Shown in pieces: positions 16,091 through 49,822 of a DNA stretch of 64,000 bases; the first letter of the stretch is position 1, and each line of letters starts with the position of its first letter. Origin of the DNA: Verpa conica (taxonomy: Eukaryota; Ascomycota; Pezizomycetes; Pezizales; Morchellaceae); NCBI GenBank assembly GCA_033030425.1, contig JAUFSD010000012.1:310001-374000 (forward strand), given 5' to 3'. A program made the translations under genes and the position numbers. Under the pieces are notes generated by a model that was not told where the DNA came from, ran no database searches, and was given only the letters and a program-made list of their open reading frames with translations.

Positions 16091-16095
16091 TAGCC

Positions 16096-16107
16096 TAAAT
16101 ATAACAC
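16096..16107 (+). promoter_or_regulatory. TATA-like box of small-gene family copy 1
   Basis: CTAAATATAACA lies 201 nt before the ATG at 16297. Similar boxes lie about 208 nt before copy 2 (CTAAATAAATA), 159 nt before copy 3 (GATAAATAG) and 205 nt before copy 5 (TATATAAATAACA). The repeated position in otherwise diverged flanks suggests a real core promoter. Confidence 0.5.
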
Positions 16108-16296
16108 CCCTCACAGCACGATAAATCTTCATAGAAATAACGCTCTTTTTCTGCTACAGAAAGGAAGGATAAAGGCAATAGGTAAGCTTGCGACCCTGAT
16201 CTTGGTTCGTTAATCGTGTTGTCAAAATTAACTCATTTTAACGTTTAAAGACTCTAGAACCTGAAAAACGATCCTGATCGGAAACCAGCAATCTCC

Positions 16297-16482
16297 ATGC
16301 TCCCTATCCATCTTCATCTTTTTACTTGCGCTTGTGACTCGGTGCGAGTCTTTTGTTGCCTGACTAGCAAAGAGGTCTCAACTATGCCAGACTTGAATGG
16401 AAAGCCCGTCCTGGTACAGCCAGGAAGAACTACTATGCGTTATCCGGCAATCGAAGGAGCTGGAGTATTGGGGGGGTCCTAG
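16297..16482 (+). CDS. Small Cys-motif protein, dispersed family copy 1
   Basis: Sixty-one codons, function unknown. The protein starts MLPIHLHLFTCACDS and continues VRVFCCLTSKE, then a Pro/Ser-rich linker, and ends with a motif of the form QPxRxxMRYPAIE. Four cysteines sit as CxC and CC. No signal peptide is evident, although residues 1-22 are moderately hydrophobic. Copies at 18551, 19841, 22291 and 34546 share this layout, and differences between copies fall mainly at silent codon positions. A GTAAGC donor at about 16185 and a CCAG acceptor at about 16288 suggest a 5'-leader intron ending just before the ATG. I do not recognise the family. Confidence 0.6.
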   Translation: MLPIHLHLFTCACDSVRVFCCLTSKEVSTMPDLNGKPVLVQPGRTTMRYPAIEGAGVLGGS

Positions 16483-17094
16483 TTTATGGTGTTACTACAT
16501 ATACTGTATGCTCCTTATTTCCTAGGCTCACTTCCCCCGGCTTGCCTAGTCTTTATGTCTAACGATCTATAATTTAGGATAAGAATAGGTAGTTGGAGTT
16601 TGGGAAGCTGGCTTTGGATGTGGCGGGTCTATTTTGTGGATGGTTTTTTTATTTATTTAGTATTTTATGAATCTCATTGGGACTAAGCCTTGGAATTTTA
16701 TTTAAGAAAAAAATATATCAATATATCAATTACTATCACTTTATTCTTTACACACTACTAGATGCGTATACCGGTTTTAGCGGGGGGGGGGGGAAACATG
16801 GCTAGGTAAGTAGTCGTTAGGGAAAAAATGTTATGATTTTAAGCGATGTCCAGACCCATCAGCCTCAGTCGAACCCTACAGATGAAGATGAAGATGCCCC
16901 GCACACGCTTTAACAGCGTGACAATGTTTATTAGTCCCGGGAAACTACTAGTCTAATCCCTTGTCTAATCAGGTCATAGTTTCTACTGCATACCAGATTT
17001 TGTACCCAGAACAATAAAATCACTTGATATAAAATAAGATAAAACAATCCCCTTGTCTAATCAGGCCATCTGATAGCATTATCAGATGCTGACT

Positions 17095-17215
17095 AACCGA
17101 TCCTATAGCAATGCTTGAGCGAGTCGCCGATCCTGGTGTAGAAAGTGCATGCGCTATCCAGGAATCGAAGTATCTGAAATTTTCACTGTATGATGTATGT
17201 ACTTCTTACTAAAGA
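17095..17215 (+). pseudogene. Truncated relic of the small Cys-motif family (copy 6)
   Basis: ATGCGCTATCCAGGAATCG at about 17149 matches the MRYPAIE-coding tail of copy 1, about 22 of 28 bases by eye, and is followed by a similar 3' flank (GTATGATGTATGTACTTCTTA). The cysteine-coding half is not visible, so this is probably a decayed fragment. Confidence 0.45.
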
Positions 17216-18339
17216 CCCCTCATGGAGTTATGATTCTCTTTTTTAGGAGGGGGTAGATACATGTAGTTTGTGGGATGGGTATATGCAGTATCGCTCTTTC
17301 TCCTTAGGTTAATTTATTTAGTATATACGTATGATGTGTCACCTAGAAGTAGTTCTTAAGATTCAGCTGGTGATAAATTCTTCTGTTGATTGAGATACAT
17401 GGTAATAATGATGATGAGTGACGGTGATATAATCCTTTTTAAGCAACTGCCAAGGCTTGCCAGTCATCACGTGATGTTGCACCTACTTAGAGAAAATCAA
17501 AGGCTTCCTATAAGAATTAAACCTTTAGGCTTAGACCTACATACCTAGCTTAAATAGGGTGGTGATCGTAGTTTTGAAACATAGCGGACTAAAGAATTGA
17601 TCTGGTAAAGGGACCCTTCTGTAGTATATTATTTACGGTTATGCGGGTTAAAACTTCACGAGACCTTTATCTCGCTAAATGGATTATTGGCGAGAGGTAA
17701 ACTGTACTAGTCAGGAAAGCAGGTCTGCGCTGAGTATACATCATAAAGTGTGTTCTTAATTTTATAGACTATAGCTAATAACTTATCTCACTAAAACCTC
17801 GACATTCAGGCATGGTTTCTTTCGTGTAGGGCTGTGAAACCCTATTCTCATGGGTTTTAACGCACCCACTGTGTACTTATGCTTCACCATGTTCCCCTGT
17901 GTGATCTGTTTAGTGAAACTTTTGCACTATGTGCATAAAGAAAATTATTTCTGGGGCTTTAAAGACTACCCACTAGTACCTACTACATGCATAGGTACCC
18001 AATACTATACAGGTGTATGAACTGAGTGACGCACGTCGGGTAGATAGTAAAGTGCGCCCTGCCCCTATGAGAGTGGGCAGACTATGAAACACAAGCTCTG
18101 ACCTGTAGTCATTCGCAGTTACCCAACACATATGAACAGGGGCCAAGCTAAGCTACCAGATGCACAGATAGCCCAGCTGTAAAGGGGTGAAAGCCAATTA
18201 GGAATCAAGCTAGGGGACAGTGATCCTTGGTATCTCTCAATTCAGATGTTCCGTCTGCACCCTCGACTCGCTAATCTACCCTACTTGCTGGGGCTACCAC
18301 TGGCCATAGCGATTTATATTGATGATCTAAGGCGTTAGC
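17216..18339. other. Spacer between family copies
   Basis: AT-rich sequence with frequent stops on both strands. I see no gene, RNA gene or clear repeat. Confidence 0.5.
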
Positions 18340-18550
18340 AAGACTAAATAAATACCGCCAAAAATCCGGAGAATCTTCACTGGAACAGTCGTCTTCCTCT
18401 ATTATAGTTAAGAATGATATAATACAATAGGTGAGTTTACGACTCTAGTCTCAATTCCGTTGCTTAGTCTTTTTTTTATTACCGAGGTTAGTAATCGATT
18501 AATCTTAATTAGACTTTGTCAAAAAAACGATCAGAAATTAGTCATCCCCC

Positions 18551-18730
18551 ATGCTTCCTATCCACCTCCACCTTTTTACTTGTATATACGACTCTGTAAG
18601 GGTATTTTGTTGCCTTACTACCAAAGAAGTCTCATCTACGGCGCCGGACTTGGACAGGAGACCGATTCGGATGCAGCCTATGAAGACTACTATGCACTAT
18701 CCAGCAATTGAAGCAGCCAGCGCACTATGA
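18551..18730 (+). CDS. Small Cys-motif protein, dispersed family copy 2
   Basis: Intact 59-codon frame in a different frame from the longer open frame that overlaps it. It begins MLPIHLHLFTC and then reads IYDSVRVFCCLTTKEVS, so the second cysteine of the CxC pair is replaced by tyrosine. It ends with MHYPAIEAAS. Compared with copy 1, the aligned stretch from IHLH to KEVS differs at many third positions but at only a handful of amino acids. A GTGAGT donor at about 18431 and a TTAG acceptor near 18540 repeat the leader-intron layout. The 3' flank also matches copy 1 (TTATAATTTAGGATAA, about 18825), so copies 1 and 2 look like roughly 750-bp duplicates. Function unknown. Confidence 0.6.
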   Translation: MLPIHLHLFTCIYDSVRVFCCLTTKEVSSTAPDLDRRPIRMQPMKTTMHYPAIEAASAL

Positions 18731-19038
18731 GGGCCCTAGTTTATGACATTACTACATATTGTATGCTCCTTGTTGCCTAAATTCACTTCTCCTTGGTTTC
18801 CTTAGTCTTTATGTCTAATGATTTATAATTTAGGATAAAGATAGGTGGAGTTTAGGAAGTTGGCTTTGGGTGTAGATTTTAGGAGTCTATTTGACGAGTG
18901 TCTTTTCTTTCTTTTTAGCATGCTAAGGATCTCGTCGGGACCGTATAAACCTTGGAGCTTTTCAATAAATTTGCTGCTGATTTTACTATTTCGCATTAGG
19001 ACCGAGTGTTGTAGAAAGTCTCGGGGTATTCTTAAGCG

Positions 19039-19519
19039 TGCCTCTCGAGCGAACGTTTAATATACCATGAAAGACGGGTCCAAGTTTCCTTTACCATGTC
19101 GTGCCATGTCTAACTACCGAAACCTGAACATAAATGCATACAAACAGTGCATACTAACTAGCTTGCAGAGTCAGTCCACTGCCACATTCGCTCTCAATAC
19201 TGTTATTAAAATCACATGATCTCAAGTACTGAAACTGACTAAACCCCTCTCTCTAATAGGCTACACCCTAGGGGCTTTATAGAGGCAATTGACTTCCTGA
19301 GCACGCATGTTAGCAAATGGTCTATTGCTGCGACGCGTGTTTTTTGGGGGGGAGGGGCTATAGCGTGGTATCTATGGGCCTTTGCAGCTTCAGGAGAGGG
19401 AATACGCACATTTTCTATGCACTTATGTTCGGGTTTTTGTAGAGAGACATAGTATGACATGGTAAAAGGAACTTAGACCCCTGTCGGTCATGGTATAACA
19501 AACGTTCGCTCGTGCCTCT
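19039..19519. mobile_element. Short TIR element with target-site duplication (MITE-like)
   Basis: The element 19046-19512 (467 bp) has inverted repeats of about 70 bp. CGAGCGAACGTTT at 19046 is mirrored by AAACGTTCGCTCG ending at 19512, and similarity continues through TATACCATGA, GGTC, AAGTT and TTTACCATGTC with scattered mismatches. Both sides carry TGCCTCT (19039-19045 and 19513-19519), a 7-bp or, with the preceding G, 8-bp target duplication. It holds no transposase and is presumably mobilised in trans. An 8-bp duplication would suit the hAT superfamily, but the ends alone do not settle this. A related end lies at about 33258. Confidence 0.8.
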
Positions 19520-19840
19520 ATGCATGCGTGGCCATATATATGTGATCGTTTCCGCACACTCGAACACACACTACATGTAGTATGCCAAGTTTCCCGTACA
19601 CTCAACTACACACCAATATAAATATATGCCAATATGCTAAACTGACTTTGATGCTACAGGAACAATGCAGCGTTGGAAACAGATAAATAGCCCCTCAAAA
19701 CCCGAAGAATATCTGCACAAACAATACCCTCCCTCTATTTTAGAAAGAATAGGTTATAGACACCAGGTGAGCTTACGACGCCGGTCTCAGTTGGTTAACT
19801 GATCAGATTTCCAAGGCTAACCCATTTAGTACATGTACCT

Positions 19841-20011
19841 ATGTATCATATCCACCTTCATCTTTTCACTTGTACGTGCGACTTGATAAGAGTCTTTTGT
19901 TGCCTTACCAGTAAAGAGGTCCCATCTACAGCTCCAAACTCTAAAAGAAAGCCTGTTTTGACCCAGCCAGAGAGGACGACTATGGTATATCCAGCGATTG
20001 AAGGGGCTTAA
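19841..20011 (+). CDS. Small Cys-motif protein, dispersed family copy 3
   Basis: Intact 56-codon frame with the family layout: HIHLHLFTCTCD near the start, VFCCLTSKE, a short linker, then QPERTTMVYPAIEGA before TAA. It is six codons shorter than copies 4 and 5 at the C terminus. A GTGAGC donor at about 19766 matches the leader donors of copies 1 and 2, including the bases after it (TTACGAC). The gene lies about 330 bp downstream of the TIR element. Function unknown. Confidence 0.55.
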   Translation: MYHIHLHLFTCTCDLIRVFCCLTSKEVPSTAPNSKRKPVLTQPERTTMVYPAIEGA

Positions 20012-20757
20012 ATGCTAGTATATTTCTAATTGATGACGTTACTATATATATGTATGATACGCTCCTTATTACCTAGACATATTCTTTTCTGATTTTAGTT
20101 TATTTAGGGGAGGTATCGATGGTAGTTTGGGTTTAGGAAATTGGGTTTGGGTATTTGGGTGTGAAGTTTAAGGGGCTATTTGATGGGTACTTTTTTAAAA
20201 AATTATTTATAGGGGAAAAATACAAAAATTACTTATTTCGCATATCGATTAGGCTTATGGGTGCTGTAATGCACTACTGTATAATCTTATTAAATCCGGC
20301 CCGCTTTGATAGGGGTGGGTGCACGTTAATAGGTGCTGGAAAAGTTGAAGTGATGGATATTCCTGGCATTAGGATAAGAAAAGTACAGGTACTGGTATCT
20401 TTTTCAGGAGCCTGGGTCATCTCCGAAAAAAAGCCAATGGTTACATAATCCTCATGTGATAGATACTGAAAGGATTTCTGTGATAACTATTGAGCAAAAT
20501 CGCATCTTACCCTCGAGTTACACGGTACAGCCTGATCGAACCCAGACTCTAGCCTTTACACAGTGGCGCCCGCCCAAACTTTAGCAAGGTACCCACGATA
20601 ACGTCATACCCCAGGCCTCTATCCCGCCCCTCCAGCGTGCTTGCTGTAAGTCGACGTTTAGTGTGAGTCTTAATTACTCGAAGACTGCTGCTCAGATCCT
20701 TACCTACTTATGTTATCTACTCGCCCGCTCAGTCCTGTAAATATTTCTGCGTACATA

Positions 20758-21278
20758 CAGTCACTAGGCAGATATGTTCGTGATGTGGTTTCAGATGACG
20801 AAATACGGCTCGGCAGGAATCTTTATATATTTAAAAATTTATTATAAATCTAGAAGAAAAGATAAAAATCTCCTTTAAATTTCCAATAAATCTCTACTAC
20901 TCTGAGTACCTAATAACTCTATGAAGGATTTTTCACATATGTATCTATCTCATGGTGAATTTTTAAAGTTTTCTAAAAGTGCTTTAACTGGTGCTTTGGC
21001 CTTTTAGATGGTGTGGAAATTAGTCTCGGCGGAAGAATTGGCAATTTTAGGTATAGTTCAGTAATTCTTCAAAAATCAGTCAGACAAGGTAAAATCTTGC
21101 AAATCATTTCTAAAAATATTTGATAATCTCAAGTATCTACCTCTTAAATCTGAATTTTTTTATATCTATCCTTGTTTTTCAGCAGATTTTCAAAGTTTTG
21201 TGAATTTTGGGTTCTCCTCCAGGAACCGTGCGCTGTCTCACCTGAAACCGCATCACGAACATATCTGCCTAGTGGCTG
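20758..21278. mobile_element. Short TIR element with TA flanks (mariner-like MITE)
   Basis: Terminal inverted repeats of about 40 bp: CAGTCACTAGGCAGATATG from 20758 pairs with CATATCTGCCTAGTGGCTG ending at 21278, and similarity continues through TTCGTGATG and GGTTTCAG with two or three mismatches. Both outer flanks are TA, as expected for Tc1/mariner insertion. The 521-bp element has a very AT-rich centre with no transposase frame, so it is non-autonomous. Confidence 0.8.
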
Positions 21279-22080
21279 TATATAAACCCACCTATAATTC
21301 GCTGCCGTGGCTGGTCAGCATAGTTTTTCTTTATCGCCTACAAGTACAGGCTTAGCCAAAAATAGGACCATATAAGTCAACTAAGAAGTGGGGTGATTAA
21401 ACCTAACCCTGATTTTTGTTGCTTTCATTACTAGGTGTGTTTACTCTATACTGAAGTCTACTAGAGTATTTAAGGTTTAAAGATCTCACCAGGACCCAAA
21501 TCTACCGCAAAATCTAGCACCCCCATATGGTCACATACAATATCCGCCACGTCCCTCGCTACTATCTAATAGATATTTATTATCACAGACTTGTTCACCC
21601 GCTCGCGACAAGCACTGTATGACGGCAAGTACCATCAGGGGCAAGGACCATGTGGTGAAAAGCATATTATAAGCAAAGGAAAAGCCAAGCCGAGTAGATA
21701 CTTTGTCGCCTATTGGCTCAAGATGAAAGCCCCATGGGGACAGTTGTCTGCACACAACCTCAATTACGCTTGTGTACCTTTGATATTGGCCGGTAGCGGT
21801 CAATCACATTAACATGCAGGGTATAAGTGATCGACCCTCCTCCGATGCGTTAACCTAAGGATCCCTTTTCTTGCGAGAGGGGCGCAGCATGTATGTATGT
21901 TTTCGAATTTCTGTTCTGCTCAGAAGGCGGTAACTGGCTGCATGTACTTGCCAAGATATATTGCAACCAATAATTTTCGCCATTTATAAGCTAGGTGTAC
22001 AGTTTGGCATCGCGAGGCACGAGCCTTGGCGCCAAGTTCAACAAAGGCTGGACACGAGACAGGGCCTCCGGGTGGATATC
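21279..22080. other. Spacer without a supportable gene
   Basis: Overlapping frames at 21531-21803 (-) and 21591-21812 (+) code on opposite strands over the same bases. Neither resembles a known family, so I assign neither. Confidence 0.45.
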
Positions 22081-22290
22081 TTACTATATCTGATCTGTAG
22101 AGCTACTTAAGTCACTCTTATACACTGTGTAGAGTCCCTTTAGAAAGAAACCCCTCATTGTTTACTACTACAGCATAACCTGATTACGGCCCAGGCATAT
22201 CTCGACTTTAATTCATTTAACAGACCATTCAAATTTCAGATCAGCAAAGCAATGAAGAGGGTCGCGGTCGGTTTACACGCACAATCGTCA

Positions 22291-22479
22291 ATGCTTCATA
22301 TTCACTTCCACCTTTTTACTTGCGCGTGCGATTCGATAAGGGTCCTCTGCTGCCTCAATACCACAGAGATTTCGCCTTCTCCAGCCCCGAACTCGAATGA
22401 AACGCTTATTCAACCCGAGAGGGCGGCCAGCATGCGTTATCCAGCTATCCAAGCAGCTGAGAGACTAGCCGAGTCCTAG
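22291..22479 (+). CDS. Small Cys-motif protein, dispersed family copy 4
   Basis: Sixty-two codons from the ATG that aligns with the other copies. An in-frame ATG 39 bases upstream (22252) would add 13 residues absent from copies 1-3. The protein reads MLHIHFHLFTCACDSIRVLCC, then a Ser/Pro linker, QPERAASMRYPAIQAAE and a final AES before TAG. Its C terminus matches copy 5. The upstream region is more diverged and the leader donor is not clear here. Function unknown. Confidence 0.55.
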   Translation: MLHIHFHLFTCACDSIRVLCCLNTTEISPSPAPNSNETLIQPERAASMRYPAIQAAERLAES

Positions 22480-24385
22480 ATTATGTGTCTACATCATGGT
22501 ATAGCTTCTTATTGAAATTATCTACCTCAAATAAAGTTTTCTGATTCCTACCCAGATAGAAACCAGGGCGAGAACTATGGCAACTAGGGATCTGGGAGAT
22601 TGAGGTTTGGGTTAGAGGAGGGGGGATTTCCTTTATGTTTCTTTATGTACTTGAGTACTTTACGTAGCTTACGAGGAATATATCTGATTATAGAAACCTG
22701 TCCTAGGCGTTTATTATCTAGGTATAGATTAGTATGTGACCTGAAGCATGATTGCGGAGCACGATGGTGAGGCGAAATGAAATATTCCCTAGTAAGGGTA
22801 TGATTCAAATATTACGTGATGTTCACGTGACAAGCGGACTATCTACACGTCCAACCAGATTTTAAGCATCTGCTTTGGAGTGTTCTAGTCTTGCTTGTGG
22901 GTGGGTGAAGTAGTTAGCACCCACCACATTATCTATAAAAGTCTGTCACGTGAAGATTACGTAAATACTTAGTCATGCGTCAGATTCATCGCGAAGTTAC
23001 CGTTCTAGCTAGTGAATGTGTCTTAGGGATTGTACCCAGGCATTACAGTCTCACTCACTAGATGTGGAGGGAGTGCTCACTGCTGGAGCTTCCCTTGGGA
23101 ACGTTAAAACTAATGAATGCGCTGGATTACGACTCTCTTAGCAAACCTTGTTCAGTGTTCAGATGCGGTTATGGACTCTAGAATACCTGCAAAGTTGAGC
23201 AATGGGGAAATCGCTACTAGATATCTTAGTAATAGTGTATTATATGTGTCTGCTATAGCAAATATTTCCAACAGGCTGTCATAAATCTATGAATTTTGTT
23301 CGGATGGCTTTAATTAATGGGTTGCGAAGCCAAGTTAGGCCCATGCTATCATGGTACATGTACCTTATATTTATTACTTTTGTGACTAACTTGCAAAGTT
23401 GAAAAATAATCAGAAGCTCAAGTATGAGTGATGCACTATATATGTGGGGAAAGTATTATATAGGGGCACGTGCATGTACTATATCTAATAGAGGCTTAGA
23501 TGTAGCTAGTACATAGGCTTCTACTAAATACCTAAATACGTACTTTAGATCCTACATAGTTACTCGCTCTATAATCAATATTATCTTAGCTGAAAAGCTA
23601 TATATATTTCACTGGTTAAATAAAAAAAAGTCTCAAGTGTTATTGCCGGCCATGCATGAGTTATCACTCGTTACTATCTATTTGAGTATAGGCATAGCGT
23701 AGGTACAAGTAGGTTCTAGGTTTACTGTTATATGAGAGCATATGTAGAGATCGAGAGCAAAGGCACTCTTAAGCCTACAATCTATCTACTATTGTTACCC
23801 CCTCTATATGTTTTTTTGGCATTAACGCGCTTGTTATTTAATACAACAGGGATCAACTATAGTTTTGCTAATATAATTTAGCGACCCCACGACGGATCTA
23901 GATAGGGTATGTATATGTTGTTTTTTAGAATTGAGAGTAGAGAAACGCTTGATTGGTGGTCTAGGGGAGGGCCTTTGGTCCTTTCATTGGTTCTTTTCTG
24001 TACGTGTCCGGAATTCTATACCTATATATGCATAGTATATATCTCATTAGGAAGAACTCGCTCAACGTCATTAAGTACATGTATGATCATACGAGTGACA
24101 ATTTAATTTTAACTCTTCAAAAATAAACCACAACCTTTTAAGACTTCTCTCTCCAACGGGAGGAATAAATGAATGAATGAGTTAATCATAAATAGATAGC
24201 CAAATAAGTAGCCAATGGGAAGGATGTTAATTTAGGCTCCACTAATTATAGTTAAAAAACCCCCTAATCGAGTTATCTGGAAATTAATGACTCTACCAAT
24301 AATTCATTTTCGGGTTTATGATTTTGTAGTTACATAATCCACCTAAAAGTACCATATCTAACTAGAAATGGTATTTATATACTTC
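22480..24385. other. AT-rich spacer without a supportable gene
   Basis: Stops are frequent in all frames. A TGAATGAATGA...TTAATCATAAATA motif at about 24166-24195 recurs at about 10708-10734 and, inverted, at about 28993-29033; it may be the edge of an old repeat. No RNA gene is recognisable. Confidence 0.5.
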
Positions 24386-25668
24386 TTACAATTTTCCATT
24401 GTCGACATCCATTGTATAGTGGCCTAGTCCTAATTCGATTAGCGAAGAACTTTTTACTGCATTAACAAGAAACTGAAGGGGTAGAAGGACCTGTTCTATG
24501 TAGAGAGAGTTACTGGGTAGTATAGTAAATGCCTTGTAACATTCAATCCTATTCAGATTCATCGCTACGTCATTAAAAACTAAGGTGAGCCCCTTGACTG
24601 CAACATCAACTTCCCTCATCGGGTTGTTGACCCTAGTTATAATTTAGCGAGTTCCTAGCCAGTATAGCTTCTAACTTATATGCTCTCTTTACGACTTGAA
24701 TATAGAAGGGTGGACGTACTGCTCTAGCCGTTCCTTCATCTTACTTGCTGCATCTAATTCTGCACGATATTTAACTAGGAGATTTTTGATCTGTATATGT
24801 ATATTAGTAAGGGTTCTTCGGTAGGCAGGTATAGGTGATGGGACTTGCATTGTATCCATCAACTCCGTGTTTGATACCGGAGGACAAAAGCGCTGCCCCC
24901 CCTCCACCTAATAGCGACACGGCCAAGGGTCCTATAGGGATGAGCGGCTATACATTTAAACAAATAGTTTGAGCTGATGTTTCTGGGATGGGAGTCTTAC
25001 CACCGGGCACAAAGAAGCTTGCGGTAAAGAGCGCGGATGCTCCGAGTAGTTCAAGAACTGCTAACAGCTGTAGATTTCCTTTTTCTTTGGACTCTGTTTG
25101 TTTATCTTGAAGAAGATCTCTTTTTTCGTTGAAGGTCTATAATAAGCGTTAGCCCACTGCTTGATCTGCTGCATGATTTATTCAACTTCATAAGGTTTGG
25201 AAGTAATAGACACTTACAATTATGGCGGCATTGATAGCATTCCCGAGGTTTACTTGTGCACTACCCCAATCATCGCTGAAACTACTGTACTTCGAGTACA
25301 GTTTTGCTGTCTTCTCTTTGTATTTTTCAATCGTACTGCCATTCACTTCCAGGTATTCAGTAATACTAAGATTTTGATCCTTCAGCTGCGGAAGCAGGAC
25401 CAATTGCATCATGGAGTAGCTGACTAGGTTCCGGACCATTTCCACTGACTCTCGTTGTAATTCTTGGTATAGCTGTAAGTTTCCAGGTTAACTTGATGTA
25501 GTGAGTTATAGATAGATCTCTTACCTTTTTGTATCGAATCACCAAGCTTCGGATATCAATATAGTTTGGATCATCGGAGGGGTCGATGACTTTTAGGGTA
25601 TTGAGGTGCGGCTGCTTAAGGATATCATCGAAGGTTTTCAAGATGACCGTGCACCTCTCATTCAGCAT
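24386..25668 (-). CDS. Helix-rich protein with a central hydrophobic hairpin; possibly broken gene
   Basis: Not assigned to a named family. Good splice signals define exons 25525-25668, 25218-25472, 25001-25136, about 24693-24931 and 24386-24632; donors are GTAAGA, GTAAGT, GTAAGA and GTAAAG. The conceptual product is about 340 residues and almost wholly helical. It has amphipathic N-terminal helices (ILKTFDDILKQ), a segment ending in DDWGSAQVNLGNAINAA, a charged helix, then two hydrophobic stretches (LLAVLELLGASALF and, after an intron, AVSLLGGG), followed by more helices. That order resembles alpha-helical pore-forming proteins of the ClyA or XaxAB kind, but also other membrane-inserting bundles. 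One apparent break is a frame change at a run of seven Gs (24896-24902). A second possible break lies upstream of 25668, where a well-formed frame reaching back to at least 25833 is out of phase. Pseudogene, homopolymer error or mis-modelled start are all possible. Confidence 0.5.
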
Positions 25669-27236
25669 CTCGATAGAAAGATTAACATCAGCAGGCGGCC
25701 TTCATACTAGCTTTATTAGCTTCAGGCCTAAAACCTAGGGGGATGAAAGGAAAGAAAGTAGGTGCCATATACAGAAGTGCCTGAAGGGGGTTCCCTCCGT
25801 CCTGTCCAGCTCGAGTTCCCATGCTAAGCGAAATCACTCTAGTTGTACCTAGTAATAAGGCGGGAGGGTAGAGCAAAAGATTGGTCCGATATATCTCTAC
25901 TCAAAGCGTATAGTTGAGGATACTAGTCTTTGATTATCGAGGCCACAATATGTGGACGGGGAGTTCACTGCGGGGGGAAATGTATTATATAAACTGGGCT
26001 AAGTAAGGTCTAGTAACCTTACCACAACGGAACTCGTAAGCCCAAGGTTCGTAAAATGTAGAAATATCAACACATTGATATGTCTAGATCGAGGCCAGTC
26101 CCAAATAGAAAAGCATAAGGAGGTTGGGATAGCTGGTTAATATAAGTATAACGGTTTGTTTCGCAGGCAAGGTTCGACCCCCTAGCCAATCACCCACGGC
26201 ATTTGCTGGTAAAGGGAGTTGCAATAATCAAAGTAGCAAGATATCAATAGTCATTCTTCCAATAAAGTTTCTCTTCCCGCAATACTTGTATGTATGGTTA
26301 TATAATTATATTTCTTTTCCTACCCCGAGTACATCTAGGCAACCTCAACTTGGCCACGGCTATCGGTATTTATGTGGGGATCAGCCGATCTAAGCCAAGA
26401 TTCTATGTGCAAAGGGCATTCAATTTAAACATTACTGAGCGTGATAAGATATGTAATGCTAGGGCAACAATATATCTATAACACAAGGTTATTAGTTACC
26501 ACGCCAGCTAGCTCATGCATATGCGATCAACATAGTAATAGATTAGCAGCGGGCTCAGCAAGTGTAAGCCTACTCATTGGCACAACGTGCATACCGACGT
26601 CATGTAGCTATGTCGACGACCGTTTTTAGGTGGATATCCTAGCTAACTTCATAGCCAAAAAAATCACTACGGGGGCGTGATTTGGAAATGTTTAGCTTTC
26701 GATGCCCTAAGTGGATTAAGACATAATTATACTTCCTTGACTAATATTTAGTTCTTTTTATTTCATAGTAATAATTATAAGCGGTAGGTAGCGATACAGC
26801 ATGATCTCTCATGGGGCCGGTACAGTATCGATCGGTTAGATGATCTGCTTTATCTTTTTTAGGCGTCAACTATTAGGATGTTTTATTGGGCTTATGTGCA
26901 TGAGTCTCACAAAAGGCGGGGAAAAGGAGGTGTCATAAATTCTTGGCTACTGAAAATATGACATCTTGAAATGATTTGGGTGAAATTTTATGTGTTCCTA
27001 CGGGCGATACCTAATAGCACCAGCTACAGTTGAGTAGCGAAAGATAACCTGCATCTCTATCATCCCTCCGTGAAGTAATAACAGAGGTGTACGCGGGGCC
27101 GAGAGACAAGGTATTAGTATTCTAAGATGTCTTTTATGCCAAGCCATATCCATGCCATCATATATAACCGATCACCAAGACCTCTCTAATAGTAGTTCTA
27201 ATTTCCGAGAATTTGGACTCCCCTAGAGCTTTTAAG
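25669..27236. other. Divergent spacer between two helix-rich genes
   Basis: Holds the possible N-terminal extension of the minus-strand gene (25688-25833, out of phase by one base at about 25690) and about 1.3 kb of AT-rich DNA with no supportable gene. A GGTTCGACCCC string at about 26170 recalls a tRNA T-arm, but no cloverleaf forms. Confidence 0.4.
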
Positions 27237-28243
27237 ATGGTTAAAATTCTAGCACCAGTAACCAAAGACCTCCCTTTATACGGCCAGCCATTTAACGCAG
27301 TCGTGGAGCATGCACTTCCAGCAATAGCGACTAGCACAGATAAGATCATAGAAATTTTTGACAAGCTCTTACAGATTCCCTGTGGAAAGTTTGTATTCGC
27401 CTTTTAGACTTTACCGAATCATAGGCGAAAAGACAGCTGACTGGGGGGAAAGCTCTCTCATATTAACGGACAAACTAGGTTTTGAAGTCAATGTACGCGC
27501 TACTTTAGTTAGTATGAAGAGGAAATGCAAAGACTTGCAGCTTTTAGTGGCCACAGTTGGTAGGGATTTGTCTGCCTACTCGGAAATGCAGTTGGTACAA
27601 ATCTCACTATTTATCTAGTCCCCTCCTCTAATGCCCAGCCCGTAGCTAACACCTAGAGTATTTTTGTATTAGACCCTTAGTTCTCTTATTGGCCAAGAAG
27701 GTGGCATCACGTGTAGCGATTACCATGCTGTAAGCGACATACTAGTTGAGGTGGGTTCCAGCGCGAAACTTAACTCGTACCACGTTAAAACTCTTGATAG
27801 AAATACTGCAGCCCCAGAACTGAAATACAAGTGCGTACCGATGATCTGCGGAGTGAGTTCGATAGCTTTCTGGGTCTCTTGGTGGCGGAACTTGGGGATA
27901 TCAAGCAGCACATTCATAGACTAGAAAAGGAACTTTCTGATATGAGAAAATACACAGGTCTGTATTTAGATCCTCTCCGGTTTTTTTGTGGTGATTTAAG
28001 TTCTGGAGTTTTGCGTTGAGTTTTCTTTTAGTACGTGGTTATAAATAATTTGACAAAATAGAAGTCCCCCAGCTAGTACCTCAATGCCTTGCACCGTTGG
28101 TCCCCATAGCTTTTGCAGTCTCTAGTCCAGCCGTCAGTATCGCCAGCATCTGTACTGCTATTGTTACCAACGCAATGTTAGATGTCAACTCAGGGCATGA
28201 ATTCCCTAAAAATTCTGCGGAAGCAGACAAATCAGCTGAGTGA
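27237..28243 (+). pseudogene. Broken helix-rich gene with C-terminal hydrophobic segment
   Basis: Coding-like blocks occur in order on the + strand: 27237-27370 (amphipathic, ALPAIATSTDKIIEIFDKLL), about 27412-27594 (charged helix with GEKTADWGE), 27831-27957 (helix with LGDIKQHIHRLEKELSDM) and 28073-28243 (a hydrophobic stretch of about 30 residues, then an acidic tail and TGA). Two joins need single-base frame changes that introns do not explain, near 27370-27410 and at about 27830, so I call it a pseudogene. The plan, helices plus a hydrophobic hairpin, parallels the minus-strand gene 1.6 kb away, but I could not align the two reliably. Not assigned to a family. Confidence 0.4.
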
Positions 28244-29657
28244 GAACCCAATTTATATCTTCACGGGGCCAGGAGTCTATACTAATATTTTTATGTAAAA
28301 AAAGAATTAACGAATGTCAAAAAAGAAAAGAAGGCCTTGAGGAGATCATTCCATTGATACACTCTATCTTGTACCTTTCCGGTAGTGTAGCCGGATCAGA
28401 CAAATGTTAGATCTATACTGGTATAAGAGAATGTAGTTATTATGGAAACCTATTCGTGGAAATAGGTCTTAATGATGAATCTCACCCTGTGCTGGGGAAG
28501 CCACCGATGTCAAATCAGGTTAGAATTATCCTAAAATATAGTTACAAGTAGATAAATACTATAAATAAAAGTAACTGTCCATCCTGACTTGAGAAGCCCG
28601 TTGATGTACGTTCTAGTACAGGGGTATGTGCAATTGAAGACTACATGTAGTCTAGTCTGTTTGCGGTAGTAGAGAGCCTCAAGGACCTATTCTCTTGGCA
28701 AACCTTGTAGTACAACACCAAGCTCAGTTCAAGGAACCATTTAACGTAAGACCGCACTACAGGTTAAGTAGAATTCAATGATAACATGTACATACCCGGC
28801 AAGAGATTGCGCAAAAAGTCTTTGTATGTATGTTGACGTTTCCCTTACTATTTAAAGTAGTCGGGGGTATATAAAACAAGCTGCTAATAATGGTGTATAA
28901 GAATATAGAACTAGAATATATATACCTAGGTATAGTTAAGGCAACTATCCGGGTTGGTATATACCAACTGAGAAGACCTAACTCCTATGTATTATGATTA
29001 ATATATAATTAATTAATTAATTAATTCATTCATACCTAACTCCTATATCTATATTTAGTCAAGTTTCTAGGATCCAATAGCAAGAACCCTAACCCTATTC
29101 TAAGGTTTTGGGGTGCTTAGCTTACACGAGCGCTGTCTCTGCAGTAGGAAGTAAGGGCTTTAACTGCCTCCAGATGACTGCCACATATGACCAGCTTGGG
29201 AAGTGTCACTGCATCAGCTGATCTGAAGCTGTTTCTCAGGAAAGCTGGCACTGCCTTCGAGGGAGTAGCTTATCAGCTATATATATTTACTATATATAGT
29301 AGCCCTACACTTTCAGTCCATTATGTACCTGATAAAAATCCGCTAATTCATATTCACCCTACGGATAATATGCATCCTTTTAGCTAACCAATAATCCTAT
29401 CTTTCCTAATGGGATACACGGGACCTAACCTAAGGTCTACGGTAGGGATTGAAAATAGAACCTAAGAACATTGATTTAGTGAATAGAAATCAGAAACGTT
29501 AAGAAAAGAAAGAGAGAAGGAAAGAGAAAGAAAGAAAGAAAGAAAGAGGATAAATTCTCATCCATAAGCAACTTTAAGAAACGAAGAAGATAGGAACAAG
29601 CCGAAAATGATAGAAAAGAGGTAAGCAGTACATGCAAAAAGCTGGAATAAGAAACTG
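28244..29657. other. Spacer without a supportable gene
   Basis: Contains an ATTA-rich palindromic stretch at about 28993-29033 and a GAAA-rich purine tract at about 29500-29550. The purine tract lies in the 3' flank of the minus-strand GTPase gene. No gene is seen. Confidence 0.5.
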
Positions 29658-31043
29658 CTACAAAGAATCTGGCTGAACTTGCTGTGGTAGGCTTTGACTA
29701 TGTTTCTTTTTGACTTCACAAGTGACCTCATCTATGAGGTCTACCTCGTCGATGATTTTCTCCCGGATATTTTTGTCGCCCTTCACGTAACCTAGGAGTA
29801 CCTTTCTAGATATAATATAAACGTCTTGCTGAGGGAGACCGGCACTCTCTAAAAGAATCTCAAATTCTTTGTATGTGTCCCGAATGAATTTACTTTGAGC
29901 CTTGGCGAAACTCTCTTTGTCATTTTCATCGCTGTCGTCATCCTCCTCCATAATGTTCCGGATATGTTGATCTGCCTTTGAACGGACAACAAATGCGGGG
30001 ATATCGAAACGTCCGCAATCAAAGAGGATATCCAGGTCTATCTTGGTGAAGCGGCTGTCGATTACGATGATAATGGCATCAAAGATATACAAGCCTTGGT
30101 TGTTGAAATATTGCCAACTAGGAACCTGGAGGGTGCCAGCGCCAGGAACATCGTACCAAATCAACCACGGTATGACAGGATCACAGTATCTTTGAGTGGT
30201 CCTGGTTGTTTCGCTAGTCCCAGTTCTGGCGATATCCGGATCGTCATCCTTATTGGTATTCGAATCATTTTCCTTATTGGTATTCGAATCATTTTCCTTA
30301 TTGGTATTCGAATCGTTTTCCTTATTTGTATTCGAAACCCCACGAAAAGCATTTACTAGTGAAGATTTCCCACTACCAGATCCGCCGGTTATGGCGAGAT
30401 GCACATTGCCCTCTTTGTACTGGAGCCTATTTCTGGTAGCCGTAATTTCCTCTGCTGTGGGGTATTCGACTGGGGGAATTCCATCTTTCAAGTTTCTCTC
30501 CGCCTTCTCTCGTAAGTAATCCGCGTCCTTAACTCTTTTTTCCGACTCTTCTTTGATCTTTTTTGCTAAGGCAGTCATTTTCTTCTCTTCGTCCGCCCTT
30601 CTAAGGCGCTCCTCAAGTTCTTGGTTCGCCACCTGTACCCTGTGATACTCCTCTAGCTGTTCCTTCTCTTTCTTCACTCGCTCTAATTCCTTTTCACTGG
30701 CTTCTGTTTTCATCCGGAGATTTTCGACCAGGGCATCCTTCTTCTCCTGTTGAACCCTACTCTTTTGCGCTAACGCCTTCTTCTTTTCCTTTTGGATCTT
30801 ATTCTTCTCTGCCTGAATCTTGTCCCTGTCCTGCTGGACCTTATTCATCTCTGCCCGAAGCTTGTTCATTTCCTCCTGTCGGACTCTTGTTCTCTCTTCG
30901 GCCGCATCGGCTTCCCTCCGCATCCTTTCCATCGTCTCCTGGGAGTCCCGAAACTCCTTCTCGTACTATTACATCTTGTTAGCGAATGATTCCGTATAAG
31001 AGACTTTAGGGTAGGGTGAGATTACCGAATGACCAGAGCCCAT
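29658..31043 (-). CDS. IRG-like (interferon-inducible GTPase family) protein with N-terminal coiled coil
   Basis: Two exons, 31026-31043 (18 nt) and 29658-30965, with a 60-nt GTAATC...TAATAG intron (GCTAAC branch site), give 441 residues. The first exon encodes MGSGHS, which fits the N-myristoylation pattern MGxxxS, as in vertebrate IRG proteins that attach to vacuole membranes. Residues 18-165 form a charged coiled coil. The GTPase domain follows: P-loop GGSGSGKS (200-207), ARTGTSETT as the switch I Thr region, DVPGAG (278-283) as G3, RSKAD (334-338) as G4. YFNNQGLYIFDAIIIVIDSRF matches the IRG pattern after G3. An asparagine-rich octapeptide repeat sits between P-loop and switch I. The role in fungi is not established; membrane-linked defence or trafficking is inference. 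The family call rests on motif order and could be wrong in favour of another dynamin-like or septin-like clade. Confidence 0.75.
30249..30341. repeat. 24-bp minisatellite inside the GTPase coding sequence
   Basis: About 3.8 copies of a 24-bp unit lie head to tail (+ strand CTTATTGGTATTCGAATCAT plus TTTC). On the coding strand each unit adds the octapeptide SNTNKEND, so copy-number changes keep the frame. The copies differ by only one or two bases, which points to recent expansion. Confidence 0.9.
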
Positions 31044-32264
31044 CTTGAGTCAAGCGTATGTTTGTTACAAGCCGTTGGCCGGAGGTGGTACGCACACAGT
31101 TCTTGTAAAACTATTGAATGTTAGTCATACATCTTAGATAAATAAAATAAAAAGTGTTATAGAATTACCAGTGTTTTCTGCTGAAAAAATTTTGTTTTCC
31201 GAACTGTCGAAGCTCGAGTATAACAGAACACTGGAATAAAAACAATGAGGGGCTAACCATAATAATATAGCAACAACTACGTGTTCAGGCAACCCACCCA
31301 GTAGCCGCAACGCCACCGTACGGCGAGGTTAGGCTCCTGCAGGAATCCTGCCGACATAAGAATCACTTCAGCTCTTATAGTTAGTTATACTAAACAAGTA
31401 AAATACCATCTGACAAATAGGGTGAGCCCATGGACTTATATTGAGGGGAGATCCGACGATCTTTGTACATGGCTGAACCGATCATTCCCAGTTCTGTCAG
31501 TCAGTACATGCCTACATGAGCGAGTGGGTGAAGCGAGACATCATGACTCACTCGATCTAGGTAGCGGTATTCCTTATCAGATGAGATAAAATCGCCTATA
31601 TTGTCTTTAACTGCTAAGCCACATGTCTTAGACATCTACGTAATCCTTCACATTTAGCTAGATAGGGTAAAGTGTTGATTGGACTAGTGTATATATGCCA
31701 ATATCAAATCCTTTAAACTACATGTATTGATATAATTAGGTTATGTTAATTCCTCTACTTGTAATTGTATCCATATACAGCTTACTGTCTTTAACCTCTA
31801 GGACTCGATTTTTAGTTTTCTACTTACAAAAACCAATACTGGGATCCCTAGCTAGAACAATGATACTTAATAGAGAGTCTTTTTGAGGGCTCTGGGATAT
31901 ATGAAAGGTAGAGCACTATCTGAGGATTAAAATAGGCCCCTATACAACATAATTAAGTAATATCTAGGGTAGTGGCTGACTTTCTTCTATATTTATAGAT
32001 AGGCTTAAGGTAGTTCCCCAGCTTTATGGGTATATATCATTATTGGGGAGAATCGAGGAAAGTCGGGGAGAGATCTCAGGGTTGCCCACATAGATGGAAA
32101 TCATACTAATACAGAGGTAATAGGACCATAGGGGGGTGGTCTGTATTAGGTGGCTAGATATTGCGCTGGTGGGGTCGGAAATTCACACCACCTATAGTGC
32201 GGGGTTGATCACGTTGTGATAGGCCATAGGATAGTAGTTACGACGGTTTTTTCTATGCCAAGCT
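31044..32264. other. Spacer upstream of the IRG-like gene
   Basis: Promoter side of the GTPase gene, then AT-rich DNA. A short hydrophobic frame at 31134-31316 (-) has no other support. No gene is seen. Confidence 0.45.
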
Positions 32265-32271
32265 GTGTGCC

Positions 32272-32375
32272 CTGAACGAAGTGCCCTGAACGAAGTGAAA
32301 GGGTTATGGGGTGCAAGGCCTAGCGGGTTTCCGATTGGTTGCTTCGTGAAGGGGATGTGACGCCCCACTGGCCAA
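32272..32375. repeat. Dispersed ~100-bp repeat, copy 1 (GAACGAAGTG family)
   Basis: A doubled CCTGAACGAAGTG is followed by AAGGGTTATGGG, CTAGCGG, GGTTGCTTCGTGAAGGG and ATGTGACGCC. The same order of blocks recurs at 35512-35622, and part of it at 34076-34112. The ends (GAACGAAGTG and CTTCGTGAAG) are partly complementary, so the unit may be a small inverted-repeat element. Confidence 0.6.
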
Positions 32376-34340
32376 AGGTCTCTTGGGCGCTGGCGGGCGT
32401 CGTCTCCAGTTAAGGGCTTCTGATGTGGGAAAAGGGTATAGCGAACTTTTCATTGGTTGCCAATTCGTCTAGGGCATGCGGAGCCTCTTGAGGCGAAGGC
32501 ATCACATACCCTATTACTTAAGTAGTGAAAAAGATGTCGGATACGACTAGAGGTATAATTAGCAGAGTGAAGGGATATGGCTTGCCGATTGGGGTACAGT
32601 TTGGGGTACAGTTATACTAGAGGGTGATCTGTCGTCCTCTTTGTATACTGATAATGAACTGTTGAATAATCCATAACTTGCGGCTAACTGACAGATCCCA
32701 TCTATGTCTACCAATAATCCTTTAGCCGGATCTCACCAGGGCTAAGGTGTGATTACATGTTGTTGACTGCAGAGTAGGTATGAGTACTTCGCTCTTGATA
32801 ATGTACCTGACCTGTCGTCTGGAAACTAGACCCTCCGAAAAGATTGTTGTCAATGCATAACTGGTCAAATGTTTCTGGCAGCGAAGTATGTATAGCAAGG
32901 ATCTTAAATTCTATATAGGACCGGATAGACGTTAGAAATCGGATGTAAGGGTGTTGGAATGATGTAATTGGCATCTTGCAATTCTACTTGCAAGTAGTGT
33001 TCTACATGTCCTCCAGGTCCTCCAGGTCACAATTTATATGGTGCACAACACACCATACAAAATTGACGTACCCCCCTAGCTGTTTTCTGGTTCTTTCCCT
33101 GGTAGTAACTAAGTACCGAAAGCTCGGTCTCTGTGGGGTGAGAATATGCGGGCGCCACAAGAGGGACCCAATAGTGCCTACCCACATATGCACAATTTTT
33201 TATGGGGAGTACCAAGTTGTGTTGCCTAGCCTGGGCTTCACCATTTTGTTGACCCTTTCGAGCGAACGTTTACTATATTGAGAAAGACGGGGATACGTAC
33301 AACACAACCCCAGTGGCACATAGATTTCCACAGTAAAGTGCTTGTAGATATTTGCTAGAAATTGACTACTTAGAAAAGCTAGAGATGGCTGAATAAACTG
33401 CAAGATTTTCCAGGCTTTTTTTTCCCTGTTAGAAAAGGTTGGGTTTCACTTTCCCTCGCCCTCAAAGTACATTAAGAAACAGTCTAATTATTGGTGTACT
33501 TACAGAATGACACAAGCGTTTCTCAGCACAACCCGAATTACCATAGTAGTAAAAAATTTGAAAAAATTATGCGAGTCTGAGAGAGCCCTCCCCTATTTTT
33601 TGCGACCGTAAAATTATTATTTTTATATTTATTCTGCCTTCGCCCGTATTTGGGAGGCCGGTACGTCCCGTGGTACATGTTTCACTACCAGATCTTTCTG
33701 TAGCATGGTATAGGGATAGCGGGCACAATTCACAGAGGGTGGATTCACAGGAAGATGTATTTGTGGATAGAAAATGAACTCAGGCGTTAGGTAACGAAAA
33801 AAACGCACCCGCCAGGAACTTTGTTGGCATTAGAAAAGCGGTGACCCTTAAGAATAAGCCATCTCAAGCGAGCCTATCCCACAAACACGAGACGACATGC
33901 AACCGCCAGTGCCAGAAATCAAGATCTTCACCGAAGAACATCTTACGATGGCTACCACCAGGAAGTAATGAACCGAGTGGATCAGCGCATTTACACATCA
34001 ATTAACGGCGGACTAGACCTACCACATAGATCGAAGACAGCCTGTGAAAAGTCCACTAGGCCCTTCCCACGCCCCCCTTCACAAGTGAAGGGCACTTCGT
34101 GAAGGGTGTTCTGCCAGACTATATGGGCCATCCACAGAAATGTGCAAAAAAGTGCATGTATGGATGCGTACGTGGTTGGGGGCCATCGAAGGGCAGTCCC
34201 ACAAACAAAGTATGTATGTTTCGTGTGCGGGCTGCATGTAGCAATTGAGCATTGTCTCGGATCCAGCTAGCCAGTTATCAATTATAGGACGAGTGATGGT
34301 TTATGACTACATTCATAAGCCTCAGAGCTCAGTACCCCCC
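32376..34340. other. Spacer without a supportable gene
   Basis: Contains a relic end of the 467-bp TIR element at about 33258 (TCGAGCGAACGTTTA then AGAAAGACGGGG) and a diverged repeat at about 33041-33180 that resembles sequence at 56608-56720. Open frames at 32976-33403 overlap on both strands and show no recognisable family. Confidence 0.45.
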
Positions 34341-34545
34341 ATATATAAATAACACGCATAGCCCAAAAGGATTCACAGAGCCTAGTCCATTTTTATAGTA
34401 AAAAAGTCATCAGCTATATATAAGCGAGTTTACAGCTAAGGCTATACCGACCCGAGACATTGCTCCTTCAGCAGGTCATCCAAGCCCCGAATTTATGAGC
34501 AAACGACCCGAACGGAAAAAATTACAATTATCTACCTACCCACCA

Positions 34546-34734
34546 ATGTTTCAAATTCACTTTCACCTTTTTACCTGCGTATGCGACTCGGTAAAAGTCT
34601 TTTGCTGCCTCACTAGCAAAGAGGCCTCACCTTCTCCGGCCCTAGACTCGGATAGAATTTCTGTTCCACCAGAGAGAACTTCTATGTGCTACACGGCTGC
34701 AGTTGAAGCGGCTCAGATATCAGCCGAGTCATAG
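34546..34734 (+). CDS. Small Cys-motif protein, dispersed family copy 5
   Basis: Sixty-two codons from the ATG aligned with the other copies; an in-frame ATG at 34495 would add 17 residues. The protein reads MFQIHFHLFTCVCDSVKVFCC, continues LTSKEASPSPA, and ends with PERTSMCYTAAVEAAQISAES before TAG. This copy lies 12 kb from the others, and its tail changes YPAIE to YTAAV. A TATATAAATAACA box lies about 205 nt upstream, and a diverged leader donor-like site (GCGAGTTTACAGC) at about 34422. Its open frame, despite distance and divergence, supports selection on the protein. Function unknown. Confidence 0.6.
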   Translation: MFQIHFHLFTCVCDSVKVFCCLTSKEASPSPALDSDRISVPPERTSMCYTAAVEAAQISAES

Positions 34735-48533: not shown

Positions 48534-49822
48534 TTATTCCGCAGACGCTGCAGCACCAGTAATAATCTCGACCAACTCTCCAGTAATGACAGCCTGTCGA
48601 GTACGATTGAAGAGAATCTGGAACCTGTTGATCATGTCACCAGCGTTCTTGGAGGCGTTGTCCATGGCGTTACGACGGGAACTTTGCTCGCAGGCGTGGC
48701 CTTCGGCAAGGGCCTGTTTTGGGTGGTGCGTTAGAGGTCATGTTGATGAAAGATGTTCAAGGTGCATAATAGGCGTGGAAGTGCGAGAGGATAGAGCTTA
48801 CCCAGTAGAGTGTGTTGGCTAGGGCAAACTCGCGGAGATTGCCAAGCTGCTCATCCTCAACCTCAAAGGAGCTAATGTTGGCTGTGGATGACGTAAGCAG
48901 TTGGATTAAAGTTGAGGATATCGAAAATGCATGAAATTATGGGCCGGGTAAAGCCGGGAGAAGGGAATCTCAGAAGGAAGGCAACGGAAAATATCCACAT
49001 GGTTTTGCGCTCTCGGATAACAATATAGTGTTTTTACATCCGAAAATTCTTCATCATTGAATGGGAGGGACCACAAGTGATACAAGAGATTAAGGACTCA
49101 CCAGAGGCCATAATGGCTTCCTCAGAATAGGCCTCGATGCTCTCAGGCTCGTAAGAGATGGCAGACTTGAAGGTGTTGTAGATGACATCGATGTTATCAT
49201 AAGTCTTCCCGAGCTGGAAAATCTTGTCGGCAATGGTCTGGGCCTCCACGAAACTCGGGATGTCCTTGCCGACATTGGCGAAACTCATAACAATGTTCTT
49301 AGCCGAGGATCTACCTAATTGCGCCTTGGACTTTTCTCCAAGAATGACAAGGTCGGTATCCGGGTTCTCGATGAGCTTCCTGCGAACAGCCTTGGTAAGA
49401 CCGGAATGGATACCACCGCACAGGCCCTTGTCGGAGGAGCAAACGATGATAAGATTCTTTCCGCCCTCTAAGGTCTTTGTCTCGGCATTGCTGAAGACCT
49501 TGTTGGAGGTCTCACCATAGACCCGAGAGTCACGCATTGCACGCTGAGCACGGGCAAGCTTTGTGGAAGCGACAATCTTCATGGTGTTTGTGATTTTCTC
49601 AATGTTCTTGATTGATTTAAGACGGCCCTCGATTTCACGAAGGGTAGCATAGTTGTTGCTCAGGGCTGGCCTGCGAACGGACGATGACGATGAAGCGAGA
49701 TGTTAGCGAAGGATGATCTCTGACATACATGAAATAGTGGGGGCCATCAATTGAACAATCCTTTACCTTGTAGTAGCAACCGCGGCCCTCTGGAGAACAG
49801 GTCTGGCTGCCCGAGAAAACAT
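48534..49822 (-). CDS. ATP3: Mitochondrial ATP synthase subunit gamma
   Basis: Central rotor shaft of F1-ATPase, coupling proton flow to ATP synthesis at the inner mitochondrial membrane. Exons 49767-49822, 49102-49670, 48802-48881 and 48534-48713 give 294 residues, normal for the family. The start [19 protein letters not shown] is an arginine-rich, acid-free presequence. Conserved blocks follow: [64 protein letters not shown] and [21 protein letters not shown]. The C-terminal signature [15 protein letters not shown] runs on to [16 protein letters not shown]. Splice phases agree throughout (introns 96, 220 and 88 nt). The gene is divergent from topoisomerase I with about 1 kb between the start codons. 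Confidence 0.96.

Follow-up and report, generated by a model that had tools for sequence, protein, structure and literature searches.

Five related small genes, almost certainly protein-coding, at a single locus of the Verpa conica genome

The window analysed here is a 64,000-base stretch of the fungus Verpa conica (NCBI GenBank assembly GCA_033030425.1; genome of 45.8 Mb in 25 contigs), namely positions 310001-374000 of contig JAUFSD010000012.1, designated C12, and all coordinates are given within it. The window contains five intact ATG-started frames of 56-62 codons, all on the plus strand and within 18.5 kb of one locus, and comparison of their sequences makes it almost certain that they are protein-coding genes under purifying selection. 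The frames were originally picked out in a sequence-only reading of the window, and all five were recovered at the places and on the strand claimed there, as verified by the list of open reading frames (ORFs) and by end-to-end alignment.

Under a maximum-likelihood codon model the ratio dN/dS (omega) was 0.238 for the family and omega = 1 was rejected (2dlnL 54.4, p = 1.6e-13), so that the dN/dS estimate proposed in the sequence-only reading has now been made and stands at 0.24, not near 1. The conserved core (omega 0.20) and the tail (omega 0.23) each rejected omega = 1 alone, and the family value varied between 0.238 and 0.242 across the three tried groupings of copies 1-3; selection was measured in this way as a whole-frame average. 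Pairwise estimates over the 10 pairs of copies gave pN of 0.14-0.28 versus pS of 0.53-0.78, the synonymous sites being too diverged for correction in three pairs. The changes between copies had been described as mostly silent, and this was borne out, since 80 of the 146 changed codon pairs in the gap-free core are synonymous (0.55) in the coding frame, whereas the share is 0.11 and 0.19 in the remaining plus-strand frames, and none of 1000 column shuffles reached the observed synonymous share. Gaps in the DNA alignment follow the same frame, with 22 of 22 pairwise gaps in the coding region divisible by 3, compared with 19 of 67 in the upstream flank and 12 of 74 in the downstream flank (300 columns each, pairwise gap counts being non-independent). 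The frame is open in all five copies, which alone is modest evidence; neutral simulations that assumed a pairwise divergence of 0.20, 0.33 or 0.45 left all five open in 4 %, 0.5 % and 0.08 % of runs, respectively.

In an alignment covering the whole length of the five proteins, 21 residues are invariant, and the other copies are 56-76 % identical to copy 1. Conservation is strongest in the first 27-30 residues; residues 1-27 are hydrophobic (grand average of hydropathy, GRAVY, 0.77-0.93) and the remainder is polar. Residues H5, H7, C11, D14, C20 and C21 are invariant in all five copies and C13 is present in four. The three or four cysteines of copies 1-4 lie within one hydrophobic stretch, and copy 5 has an extra cysteine in the tail. 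A C-terminal motif, [RK]xxMxYxA[IV], is found in copies 1-3 and is one residue longer in copies 4 and 5. The motif strings of the sequence-only reading were right in outline, with an alignable core and tail, and too strict in detail: the core reads TCIYDS in copy 2, where the second cysteine is lost, CDL in copy 3 and VLCCL in copy 4; the PER of the tail holds in three copies and is PGR in copy 1 and PMK in copy 2; and YPAIE, also present in three copies, is replaced by YPAIQ in copy 4 and YTAAVE in copy 5. The N-terminal additions of the long forms of copies 4 and 5 are both basic. The relic of a further copy reported near 17149 is plausible but weak, being matched by tblastn at E 0.72 and with copy 4 only (for its profile scores see Table 1).

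The whole genome was searched with copy 1 at an E limit of 0.001 and with copy 5 at an E limit of 10; both searches returned the same five places, with no sixth match elsewhere even at the wider limit used for copy 5. A degenerate pattern of the core matched exactly at the five copies only and with two mismatches at each of six further sites, for a total of 11 genomic matches versus 14 for a reversed-pattern control. DNA searches of the genome with the 297 bases upstream of copy 1 matched copy 1 alone, and with its 3' flank matched copies 1 and 2 alone; these flank searches were insensitive, since the region upstream of copy 2, which blastn does align, escaped them. As far as these sequence searches of the genome see, the family is restricted to a single locus and is therefore no transposon, so that the known-transposon alternative raised in the sequence-only reading fails. 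The genome contained no match to the telomere pattern TTAGGG x4.

The features of the locus are listed in Table 1. Copies 1 and 2 share a duplicated unit that spans a promoter-like stretch, the coding sequence (CDS) and the 3' flank, and that starts adjoining the TATA-like box. Further TATA-like matches with up to one mismatch lie upstream of copies 1, 3 and 5, and TAG acceptors lie nearer the ATG in copies 1-3 (at -42, -41 and -14), which together with the donor-like GTRAGY sites suggests a leader intron in some copies. Separate mRNAs are probable because TATA-like and donor-like sites stand at matching places in four copies, and each copy is predicted, with fair confidence, to be a separate transcription unit. 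Over the first 120 bases past the stop codon, 18 of the 114 aligned sites differ between copies 1 and 2, compared with 30 of their 62 third codon positions (Fisher p 6.6e-6), and this likeness of the 3' flanks is likely to be a local conversion tract. Outside the conversion tract the copies have diverged widely in their flanks and at synonymous sites, which suggests that the duplications are old, although faster local mutation, for example repeat-induced, would look alike. The family would have expanded through old duplications within the locus, the duplicated unit measuring 0.6 kb or more, as seen in copies 1 and 2.

Table 1 Features of the small-gene locus and its neighbours in the window (single positions are start positions; distances in brackets are from the ATG of the CDS; none of the TATA-like matches has a chance control)
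Feature	Position	Strand	Remarks
Copy 1 CDS	16297-16482	+	61 aa; ORF list, alignment, gap and codon-model tests
Copy 2 CDS	18551-18730	+	59 aa; C13 replaced by Y; ORF list, alignment, gap and codon-model tests
Copy 3 CDS	19841-20011	+	56 aa; ORF list, alignment, gap and codon-model tests
Copy 4 CDS	22291-22479	+	62 aa from shared ATG; in-frame ATG at 22252 gives 75 aa
Copy 5 CDS	34546-34734	+	62 aa from shared ATG; in-frame ATG at 34495 gives 79 aa
Probable relic, 3' half of a sixth copy	17141-17210	+	Weak: nhmmer E 0.0071, hmmsearch E 0.32
Duplication unit of copy 1	16092-16699	+	blastn against copy 2 (18341-18961): 68.5 %, 632 columns
Likely conversion tract, 3' flank of copy 1	16483-16602	+	Unusually like copy 2 flank
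TATA-like CTAAATA, copy 1	16095 (-202)	+	Consensus match
TATA-like ATAAATA, copy 2	18348-18354 (-203)	+	Consensus match, no chance control
TATA-like ATAAATA, copy 3	19683 (-158)	+	Second exact match at -223
TATA-like ATAAATA, copy 5	34345 (-201)	+	Consensus match
Donor-like GTAAGC, copy 1	16182 (-115)	+	Inferred 5'-leader intron
Donor-like GTGAGT, copy 2	18431-18436 (-120)	+	Inferred 5'-leader intron
Donor-like GTGAGC, copy 3	19767 (-74)	+	Inferred 5'-leader intron
Donor-like GCGAGT, copy 5	34424 (-122)	+	Inferred 5'-leader intron
MITE-like element, between copies 2 and 3	19046-19513		About 470 bases, long inverted arms
MITE-like element, between copies 3 and 4	20752-21284		About 530 bases, 47-base inverted ends, 91 % complementary
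Possible spliced gene	24386-25701	-	Several frames, possibly exons
IRG-type GTPase gene	29658-30932	-	Internal 24-base tandem repeat coding SNTNKEND units
snoZ13/snr52 snoRNA	48966-49063	-	C/D-box

Relatives were sought in several collections. In the protein collection, where a candidate had to share 5-residue words and be of similar length, 91 word-sharing candidates yielded no match at E up to 1, and the long frame of copy 5 had no candidate sharing three words. No match was found in Pfam (E up to 1, three of the five members scanned), in NCBIfam (E up to 1, all five members) or in a profile search of the PDB (E up to 10), and none of the 230 pattern stretches in viral contigs or the 28 in prokaryote genome contigs was confirmed. 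No open-licence paper was found that describes the family or its motif strings. A described structured RNA was also considered and rejected, as Rfam at its gathering cut-offs gave none at the locus, and ARAGORN gave no tRNA. The family probably matches no described family, and the earlier suggestion of a new small-protein family survives these searches, the scope of which excludes other fungal and other eukaryotic genomes as DNA. Tiny genes often remain unannotated and are easily discarded by gene finders. It is conceivable, if short of the expected outcome, that the genes, being of about 60 codons, represent an old family missed by annotation. On that reading, since the synonymous sites are near saturation and the protein is held, orthologues should exist in related Pezizomycetes, and the HxH-CxC-CC core would be a new functional module unlike those described.

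The explanation preferred as a whole, with moderate confidence, is a selected local family that is transcribed as separate mRNAs and encodes an intracellular module with a lineage-specific role. The N-terminal 27 residues, with H5, H7, C11, C20 and C21, would form one module that either touches the membrane, being S-acylated, or binds metal; such a membrane or metal module is a tentative proposal drawn from the residue pattern and on balance an unlikely one. The variable linker would join this module to the short C-terminal motif, the motif would bind a partner, and the protein may, by a weaker inference, stay intracellular. Fungal metallothioneins are small intracellular cysteine proteins that bind metals, and the family is like them in size and in having cysteines, and unlike them in that only three cysteines are invariant and these sit in a hydrophobic stretch; the members scanned against Pfam had no match there. 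The most likely setting would be lineage-specific biology, for example sexual development, a guess made because short orphan genes of the Pezizomycete Pyronema confluens are enriched there (PMC3778014); a role of the family in sexual development is doubtful. In Pyronema confluens, orphan genes encode the shortest peptides by median length, and over 20 % of these genes were upregulated in sexual development (PMC3778014).

Several observations weigh against the preferred explanation or parts of it. The excess of third-position change was significant at 0.05 in six of the ten pairs and not in the other four, and in none of the five copies did codon usage exceed what a random choice among synonymous codons would give, a test which speaks neither way on coding. 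Copy 4 has no TATA-like site within one mismatch and no donor-like site. The loss of C13 in copy 2 weakens a four-cysteine site, and the core was amphipathic at 0.05 in one of five copies as a helix, in one of five as a 180-degree strand and in none of five as a 170-degree strand. The AlphaFold model of copy 1 is a beta-hairpin (mean predicted local distance difference test score, pLDDT, 55), whereas that of the long form of copy 5 is a helix (mean pLDDT 61, reaching 76-78 in the core blocks); as the two models disagree and their mean confidence is low, no fold is supported. The Pyronema confluens authors regard some short orphan peptides as possible annotation artefacts (PMC3778014).

Five other explanations were considered in place of a selected intracellular family. 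A family of secreted small cysteine-containing effectors or antimicrobial peptides is improbable: the genes are small, encode cysteines, are duplicated locally and have no homologue found, but no signal-peptide-like N terminus was seen by eye, the cysteines of copies 1-4 sit inside one hydrophobic stretch, and the whole-frame average is one of purifying selection. The strong conservation of the first 27-30 residues could also mark a family of N-terminal fragments from a larger known protein, which is a little less credible still, as copy 5 matches nowhere else in the genome at E up to 10 and the Pfam, NCBIfam and PDB searches described above were empty. It is very improbable that the frames are conserved upstream ORFs, or leader peptides, controlling a downstream main ORF; a short frame past a likely leader intron with a conserved peptide would fit such control, but among frames of at least 25 residues within 700 nt downstream of all five copies none common to the copies was seen by eye, and in the downstream flank 62 of the 74 pairwise gaps have a length that is not divisible by 3.

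Mating pheromone precursor genes of ascomycetes are small and often present in several copies. The Verpa conica genome has both STE2 and STE3 receptors, a pair that points to an ascomycete; basidiomycetes are not known to have STE2-type receptors. That the family is a cluster of such precursor genes, encoding small secreted peptides, is scarcely credible: the genes are indeed small, multicopy and clustered, and pheromone genes are reported to be weakly conserved in ascomycetes (PMC3778014), but the family differs from these precursors in that the C termini of copies 1-5 are GGS, SAL, EGA, AES and AES with a CaaX box in none, by eye there is no signal-peptide-like start and no repeated mature peptide, the N terminus is the most conserved part, and the STE3 match is on contig C4 and the STE2 match on contig C5, off the family's contig C12. 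The least credible explanation is a repeat or non-autonomous mobile element with accidental open frames, for although the family is multicopy and two repeats resembling miniature inverted-repeat transposable elements (MITEs) lie between copies, it occupies five places genome-wide, all in 18.5 kb, whereas both MITE-like elements found there are present in many copies, and the codon tests and omega contradict a non-coding repeat.

Each of the two MITE-like elements has seven near-full copies elsewhere in the genome, with 95-99 % identity for the element between copies 3 and 4, which was probably recently active as judged by this likeness, and 93-94 % for the element between copies 2 and 3. The region of the small genes had been called gene-poor, which is fair as far as looked: Pfam was scanned with 13 ORFs of the 15-41 kb stretch, including those at 25366-25701 and 24386-24619, and only one, the minus-strand ORF at 29658-30965 of an IRG-type (interferon-inducible GTPase family) gene, passed the curated cut-off. 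Four of the frames in the possible spliced gene were scanned and had no Pfam match. There are eight IIGP matches in the genome. Among the best 120 of 429 matches to the IRG-type GTPase, the top scores were with basidiomycete proteins; named hits covering at least 90 % were 41-45 % identical in Morchella and 36-38 % in basidiomycetes, and unnamed metagenome proteins reached 51 %. This greater likeness to Morchella makes a Pezizomycete source likely. Nothing found ties this gene to the small genes. The C/D-box small nucleolar RNA (snoRNA) snoZ13/snr52 is the only Rfam match in the window at gathering cut-offs, and the frame adjoining it presumably encodes ATP synthase gamma.

Lineage-restricted short gene families are already known, and what is new here is a family with unusually clear evidence of selection from a single genome. 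The orphan genes of Pyronema confluens resemble the family in shortness, in the want of homologues in the collections compared and in belonging to a filamentous ascomycete, probably of the same class; that analysis omitted gene families with unclear orthologues, and a five-copy locus with codon-level selection is not in the part of the account used here (PMC3778014). The near-saturated synonymous divergence, set against searches that found no homologue, would mean either that relatives carry unannotated orthologues or that the locus evolves unusually fast. As the paralogues themselves provide the test of selection, a single genome can suffice to recognise a probable microprotein family even where neither transcripts nor homologues are at hand.

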